DNA of 64,000 bases. It comes from Anaerolineae bacterium. GTDB taxonomy: Bacteria; Chloroflexota; Anaerolineae; Caldilineales; Caldilineaceae. The notes beneath the pieces were generated by a model. It worked only from the letters and a program-made list of their open reading frames with translations. It had not been told where the DNA came from and searched no databases. Numbering within the stretch: the first letter of the stretch is position 1; the number at the start of each line of letters is the position of its first letter. The stretch spans positions 1 through 64,000 of the forward strand of contig JAUIHI010000030.1 of assembly GCA_030432295.1 (NCBI GenBank), written 5' to 3'. Position numbers and translations under genes: made by a program. Below, one piece after another: positions 8,149 through 58,614 of this stretch.

Positions 8149-8299
8149 GAGCGCTGGTTGAGTAGCTGAGTCTTCGAGGCGTATCGAAACCAAGCGAACG
8201 GGTGTCATGTGTTAACGAGCCAGCCCATTTTGTGGGCCACCCGCTTGGTTTCGATACGGCGGGAAAAAGCCCCCGCCTACTCAACCGGCGCTGGTCTTG
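8149..8299. repeat. CGTATCGAAACC-type long palindrome, copy 1
   Basis: A composite inverted repeat of about 150 bp. Outer arms are GCGCTGGTTGAGTAG (8151-8165) and CTACTCAACCGGCGCTGG (8277-8294). Inner arms are CGTATCGAAACCAAGCG (8180-8196) and CGCTTGGTTTCGATACG (8242-8258). Related copies lie at 55166-55336 and 58183-58322. Similar TTTCGATACG...CTACTCAACC repeats are common in Actinobacteria genomes from my general knowledge. It sits between yccF and the dehydrogenase and fills most of a 324-base gap. Confidence 0.8.
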
Positions 8300-55165: not shown

Positions 55166-55336
55166 CGTCGCTGGTTGAGTAGCCGCCGCCGATAACTTCC
55201 ACTCTGGCAGTCAGGTGATGGCGGCGTATCGAAACCAAGACGGCGGGTCTACGCTGGATGTGCTGTTTTCGCGTAGACCCGCTTTGGTTTCGATACGCCG
55301 GGATACAGCCCCCGGCTACTCAACCGGCGCTGGTCT
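55166..55336. repeat. CGTATCGAAACC-type long palindrome, copy 2
   Basis: Outer arms CGCTGGTTGAGTAG (55169-55182) and CTACTCAACCGGCGCTGG (55316-55333), inner arms CGTATCGAAACCAAG and CTTTGGTTTCGATACG, and a central GCGGGTCTACG...CGTAGACCCGC pairing. It abuts the valS stop codon directly. Confidence 0.8.
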
Positions 55337-58054
<2,718 letters not shown>

Positions 58055-58107
58055 CTCTTTTACCTTTCAGAAAAAACGGACACGGATTTGCACGGATAAA
58101 AAGGCAC

Positions 58108-58500
58108 AAAAAAAGTCGCTTCATCTCAAAGGACGAAGCGACTCCGCGGTGCCACCTTTGTTAGTGAACGGTTGTCATAGGTGACTAGCGCCGGTTGAGT
58201 AGGCTGCGGCAGTATGCAGCCGTATCGAAACCAAGCGGGTCAAACTGACATTAACTCGTAGACCCGCTCGCTTGATTTCGATACGCCTCAAAGACTCGGC
58301 ACTCAATCAGCGCTCACTGATCTATCGGACCCATTCACTCTCTCAACGCGCTAACGGGCGGACCCGGACGGAAGCTACTCACTGTTCACTCCGCCAACCT
58401 TCCCGGCGACTTCTCCCCTGCGCCTGCGAACGCTTCTTTCAGCCGTGAAAGCGTCTCTCTGCCGCCCGCTGGGGGATACTGCTCCGGTGCATTGTCATTC
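58108..58500 (-). ncRNA. T-box riboswitch leader of valS, carrying an inserted palindromic repeat
   Basis: Minus strand. Stem I begins near 58480 (GGGCGGCAGAGAGACGC) and closes with GTCCGCCCGTTAGCG; TGAACAGTGAGTAG lies between. GAGAGAGTGAATGGG follows. The T-box sequence GGTGGCACCGCGG is at 58144-58156, directly before a terminator stem (58136-58143 with 58114-58120) and a run of seven T. Uncharged tRNA should favour the antiterminator. A GTG followed by A at 58380-58382 is one possible valine specifier, not proven. About 140 bases of repeat (58183-58322) separate the stem I/III part from the antiterminator. Confidence 0.88.
58183..58322. repeat. CGTATCGAAACC-type long palindrome, copy 3, inside the T-box leader
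   Basis: Outer arms AGCGCCGGTTGAGTAG (58187-58202) and CACTCAATCAGCGCT (58300-58314) are degenerate, while inner arms CGTATCGAAACCAAGCG and CGCTTGATTTCGATACG pair closely. Central arms GCGGGTC and GACCCGC flank the loop. It folds on itself, so the T-box halves could still meet. Confidence 0.8.
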
Positions 58501-58540
58501 GTTGCAAAGTCGTTGACTCTGCGTATGGAATTGGTCTAAA

Positions 58541-58570
58541 AGTATAGCGGGGAGGGTGGGGGGATGTCAA
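58541..58570 (-). promoter_or_regulatory. Promoter of valS
   Basis: A perfect -35 TTGACA (58565-58570) and a -10 TATACT (58541-58546) are spaced by 18 bases, with transcription expected near 58534, just upstream of the T-box leader. Confidence 0.8.
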
Positions 58571-58575
58571 TTTTG

Positions 58576-58603
58576 TACGGGCACGATATATCGTGCCCGT
58601 ACA
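58576..58603. terminator. Perfect 28-bp palindrome after the exchanger gene
   Basis: GTACGGGCACGATA and its exact complement meet at 58589/58590. It ends the exchanger transcript (minus strand) 12 bases after its stop and lies 6 bases upstream of the valS -35 box. Confidence 0.75.
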
Positions 58604-58614
58604 AAGTACAAAGA

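Follow-up and report, generated by a model that had tools for sequence, protein, structure and literature searches.

The valS leader in the analysed window (the whole 64,000-nt stretch of DNA) bears a T-box riboswitch that carries a REPIN-like repeat in the loop of its stem III. We consider it quite probable that this is a working transcriptional T-box and that distal stem III is a tolerated insertion point. The parts of the T-box are in place and are conserved in related species, the insert lengthens stem III at its loop end, and congeners carry different repeats at the same position. Judged from the sequence, the most likely reading is that the valS T-box still works and that the repeat lengthens a hairpin tip and is tolerated there. 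We infer a continued response of the switch to tRNA-Val, and tolerance as opposed to benefit as the reason for the insert.

The valS leader is a complete T-box

Table 1. Features of valS and its leader, in window coordinates
Feature	Position	Strand	Basis
valS, valyl-tRNA synthetase, 905 aa	55337..58054	(-)	ORF
-35 box TTGACA	58565..58570	(-)	sequence reading; kept across all five congeners
-10 box TATACT	58541..58546	(-)	sequence reading; kept across all five congeners
valS T-box leader (RF00230), full length with insert	58126..58501	(-)	cmscan 71.9 bits, model 1-219 of 219
Specifier codon GUC (Val)	58408..58410	(-)	GAA-GUC, specifier position in Rfam alignment
Purine string GAGAG, 5′ of stem III	58340..58344	(-)	fits 5′-RRRxG-stem III-AA-3′ (PMC7583486); same in five species
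Stem III base, 5′ arm AGTGAA	58334..58339	(-)	Rfam model pairing; pair probability 0.87-0.99, element present
REPIN-like dispersed palindromic repeat in stem III loop: outer stem, two GTAG-type side hairpins, inner stem, variable centre	58183..58322	(-)	
Stem III base, 3′ arm TTCACT	58163..58168	(-)	Rfam model; computed pairing ensemble
AA 3′ of stem III	58161..58162	(-)	Rfam alignment, congener alignment, PMC7583486 motif
T-box sequence GGTGGCACCGCGG, antiterminator, bulge UGGC	58144..58156	(-)	sequence and Rfam alignment
Intrinsic terminator hairpin and T run	58107..58143	(-)	inverted repeat, T run read, kept in congeners

The leader starts from a promoter of the form TTGACA-18 nt-TATACT and precedes valS, which has full-length relatives in four species of the genus (89–93% identity). 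The T-box traits found are the T-box sequence with its antiterminator/terminator alternatives, the specifier GUC, which fits both the regulated gene and the tRNA-Val(GAC) encoded in the genome, and the RRRxG-stem III-AA discriminator motif in the form GAGAG-[AGUGAA...UUCACU]-AA. The Rfam model RF00230 aligned to the leader from end to end (E=1.6e-15), and a leader alignment showed that promoter, stem I with GUC, stem II, CCGUUA motif, T-box sequence and terminator are kept in five species of the genus. The valS T-box claimed in the initial annotation is borne out by the T-box sequence, terminator, stem I and promoter as read, and by their conservation in four congeners; the end-to-end model alignment fits it at a score under the gathering threshold. 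A perfect 17-nt inverted repeat (TTTGTACGGGCACGATATATCGTGCCCGTACAAA, window 58572–58605) adjoins the promoter on its upstream side and is missing from the congeners.

The score of the leader lies below the gathering score of 93, and an Rfam scan of the whole window gave no RF00230 match at gathering threshold because the valS T-boxes of the genus score low. Orthologous valS leaders reached 63.0–87.1 bits: the leader of G001, which holds two inserts, gave 63.0 bits and the congeners without a repeat of the 58183–58322 type gave 80.1–87.1 bits. Since the latter also stay below the threshold, the low score is not due to the insert alone. The remaining T-boxes of the same genome scored up to 99.1 bits.

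The bulge of the antiterminator reads UGGC (window 58150–58156) and mismatches A73 of tRNA-Val(GAC) (tRNA in L269), where UGGU would fit. The UGGC bulge is found in the valS leaders of all five species, whether the repeat is present or not, and UGGU is the bulge of valS T-boxes in nearly all other genera, with G015 sharing UGGC. A fit between bulge and discriminator base is a usual, not a defining, trait of T-boxes. We treat the mismatch as a tolerated deviation because it is genus-wide and because the pheS T-box shows the same combination, a UGGC bulge together with A73 in tRNA-Phe. It counts against the reading of a working switch, though it is shared by the whole genus. Both the mismatch and the score under the gathering threshold would fit a repeat that damages the switch and leaves a decaying or constitutively off or on T-box. 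However, the congeners without the repeat also score below the threshold and carry the same bulge, the functional motifs are all kept, the base of stem III is intact and the insert has been retained in two species, so that damage to the switch appears very improbable. Compared with the transcriptional, valS-type T-box described by RF00230, the leader has the same architecture, specifier, CCGUUA pseudoknot motif, stem III with purine/AA flanks, antiterminator, terminator and downstream valS; it differs in this bulge and in the ∼140 nt of dispersed repeat held by stem III.

The insert is a copy of a dispersed REPIN-like repeat

The 140 nt at 58183–58322 are one copy of a palindromic repeat found dispersed through the genome. 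Its 12-mer core CGTATCGAAACC occurs in 136 exact copies in the genome of the window (G000), with 0 for the reversed control, and 40 copies can be aligned at full or near-full length with 75–88% identity. The proposal that a repeat of dispersed, mobile type interrupts the leader thus holds. Core counts range from 8 to 107 in the congeners and amount to 111 in G017 and 33 in G059, and they are near zero elsewhere in the family. The consensus of 53 distinct copies consists of an outer stem, a small hairpin beside GTAG, an inner stem around CGTATCGAAACC and a near-random centre of ∼15–20 nt, followed by the same parts in mirror order. Per alignment column, the entropy amounts to 0.29 bits (arms), 1.68 bits (centre) and 1.90 bits (flanks), a pattern that corresponds to the variable spacer and conserved arms of REPINs. 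A consensus fold of 27 copies gave a branched hairpin; in one side hairpin a G-C pair is replaced by U-A in 11 copies, and two more pairs are compensated.

These properties are shared with REPINs, which are REP doublet hairpins (PMC3116915), and with GTAG-type REP dimers (PMC3733652): an inverted doublet that is dispersed and folds into a hairpin, halves in which a GTAG tag adjoins a short hairpin (the consensus has GTTGAGTAG and a hairpin on either side), a variable spacer, compensatory changes and the lack of a target duplication, no recurrent direct repeat being found at the ends of 50 copies. In the valS copy the tag is lost in one half (GTGC). In contrast to these systems the repeat is larger (∼140 bp) and has an additional outermost stem beyond the GTAG units. 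Furthermore, none of the seven Y1_Tnp matches in the genome has a copy of the repeat within 1.5 kb; because no RAYT-type gene found adjoins the repeat, we use the label ‘REPIN-like’ only.

Two more copies of the repeat lie in the window at 55225–55297 and 8180–8258. Counterparts of the copy that follows valS exist in G001, G004 and G005, and their centre changes fast. Two orthologous pairs illustrate further differences: an intergenic copy occupies the same site in G001 (L302) and G000 (L055) in opposite orientation, by in-place inversion or independent insertion, and in the pair L300 and L039 the arms are retained with a wholly different centre, which was thus renewed in place.

The repeat lengthens stem III at its loop end

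In the covariance-model alignment the insert falls into the stem III loop and separates the two arms, GAGUGAAU and GUUCACU, by 163 nt; cmscan likewise placed the inserts of the congener leaders inside stem III. The initial annotation had located ∼140 bases of repeat after the stem III area and before the antiterminator and had described the T-box as split. The repeat itself stands, its position has to be corrected, and ‘split’ does not hold for the function of the T-box, since the insert makes stem III longer at its loop end. The accompanying suggestion that the self-folding repeat may be tolerated as a hairpin spacer comes close to our best reading, a tolerated hairpin extension.

Stem III and its flanks (RRRxG before, AA after) belong to the aminoacylation-sensing domain; stem and loop vary in sequence and length and the flanks are indispensable (PMC7583486). 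Shortening stem III by 4 bp was reported to affect tRNA binding little (PMC6197855). The valS leader preserves the 6–7 bp base of stem III along with the purine/AA flanks by which tRNA charging is read. The computed pairing ensemble forms this base with high probability (Table 1), and on average 2.6 of the 140 element bases pair outside the element. In minimum-energy folds of the tRNA-free leader the antiterminator is absent with and without the element, which has no bearing on switching.

Distal stem III differs between congeners

The valS leaders of five species (G000, G001, G004, G005 and G006), whose genus is probably Litorilinea (Chloroflexota), were aligned. They are conserved up to GAGAGAGTGA and again from TCACTAAC, and the difference lies mainly in distal stem III. 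G000 and G001 have the 58183–58322-type repeat in common. G004 contains an AATCTC...GAGATT palindrome with 20 matches in G004 and 21 in G006 (both strands counted), and G006 a different palindrome, CAGTTATCAGT, with 28 matches in G006 and 12 in G004. The degenerate hairpin of G005 has one weak match elsewhere; BLAST gave no clear repeat family for it and we did not count it as a repeat insertion. The leader of G001 contains an additional insert in the loop of stem II. We looked in these relatives for the repeat as a conserved, covarying part of the T-box: G001 has the same repeat, and G004, G005 and G006 carry unrelated hairpins at the same point, therefore the repeat is not a conserved part of the T-box. 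The distance from the CCGTTA motif to the T-box is 111–206 nt in the genus and 45–85 nt in almost all other relatives, G017 being an exception with 123 nt; outside the genus the arms of stem III in valS leaders are mostly short.

These comparisons suggest how the present arrangement may have arisen. An ancestor of two Litorilinea species, or a donor to them, would have acquired the repeat at the stem III tip. The repeat may have been retained, with stem I, stem II, pseudoknot, stem III base with purine/AA flanks and the antiterminator/terminator pair left untouched, because it pairs almost only with itself. Distal stem III would then be the insertion point at which the valS leader tolerates repeats, other species holding other palindromes there.

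One result counts against mere tolerance: the element is identical at 133 of 136 positions (97.8%) between G000 and G001, centre included, compared with 89.7% in the valS coding DNA, which is more than a tolerated insert needs. The other orthologous copy pair of the same family shares 124 of 141 positions and has its centre replaced. Measured against this single, ordinary pair, the identities hint at constraint on the insert. They could reflect co-option of the repeat as a useful part of the switch, in which the longer stem III would slow or pause RNA polymerase or stabilise the antiterminator by stacking and would be kept for this reason. Stem III is long in all five Litorilinea species, and stem III is a reported pause site in T-boxes (PMC6197855). 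However, the five-species tree leaves the branching order unsettled and the same identity would result if G000 and G001 had exchanged the leader recently; moreover, the unrelated sequences in the other species indicate that no particular sequence is needed. Exaptation of the repeat is thus possible, the identities pointing to it faintly, and we regard co-option as unlikely. A single insertion followed by descent and an exchange between G000 and G001 both fit the tree. The valS stem III of the genus might also be a module built anew time after time out of mobile palindromes, with selection for a long stem III, for example for slower RNA polymerase and a longer tRNA-binding window; this, too, seems improbable to us.

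The repeat could also have reached stem III by target choice, if elements of this family prefer hairpin loops, and not by tolerance alone. REP dimers inside palindromes have been published for A. variabilis and T. roseum (PMC3733652), and over 112 copies of the repeat the complementarity of flank pairs was above that of shuffled pairs. However, the excess disappeared in the 47 copies with non-repeated flanks, where 175, 119 and 88 of 500 shuffles reached the observed value. A preference for hairpin loops is therefore quite unlikely to explain the position of the insert, and we keep to tolerance at the tip of stem III.

Inserts in other T-boxes of the genus

We compared five other T-box groups, those of trpE, the ileS/GNAT operon, pheS, serS and an M20-type peptidase. 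Length differences of at least 20 nt were found in the stem II loop (pheS of G001, ileS), in the hairpin between pseudoknot and stem III (ileS of G000) and in stem III (trpE of G000); among these five groups there were none in stem I, pseudoknot or antiterminator. The insert in the stem II loop of the G001 pheS T-box belongs to a repeat that has 40 or more further copies of 93–99% identity. Tolerance predicts that inserts survive only at hairpin tips and linkers, and this matches the positions observed. For the trpE and ileS inserts of G000 BLAST gave no clear repeat family, and they were not counted as repeat insertions; the motif ACGTTTYACGCAT in the ileS insert is common to four other loci (control 0), which is at most suggestive.

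The valS leader can be regarded as a natural insertion experiment on a riboswitch. The T-box parts that tolerate foreign DNA are the tips of stem II and stem III and the linker hairpin, the others being free of inserts in the loci compared. Repeat inserts help to explain the strong length variation among T-box leaders of this family, and the valS leader could serve to test the effect of stem III length, which is an unsettled matter. Our searches of the open-access literature, which leave out most subscription papers, turned up no account of REPIN-type repeats within T-box leaders. As in mobile attenuators (PMC2965389), mobile DNA has come to lie within a leader that regulates a host gene; in contrast to those, where it supplies the terminator, it sits here in an existing riboswitch and supplies nothing essential.

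Two further observations concern other T-boxes of the genus. The trpE T-box (L002, G000:C16:103087-103483 +) and its orthologues L151, L156, L159 and L164 contain a terminator-like hairpin, CCCTTGTGTTTCACGCAAGGGTTTTTTG, in the stem III region, which is identical in all five species, precedes the antiterminator and is possibly a second attenuation step. At L001 (G000:C13:66537-66882, (-)) a tRNA-Val(GAC) gene ends ∼43 nt before the leader of the M20-type peptidase T-box, whose specifier ACC and bulge UGGA suggest threonine.
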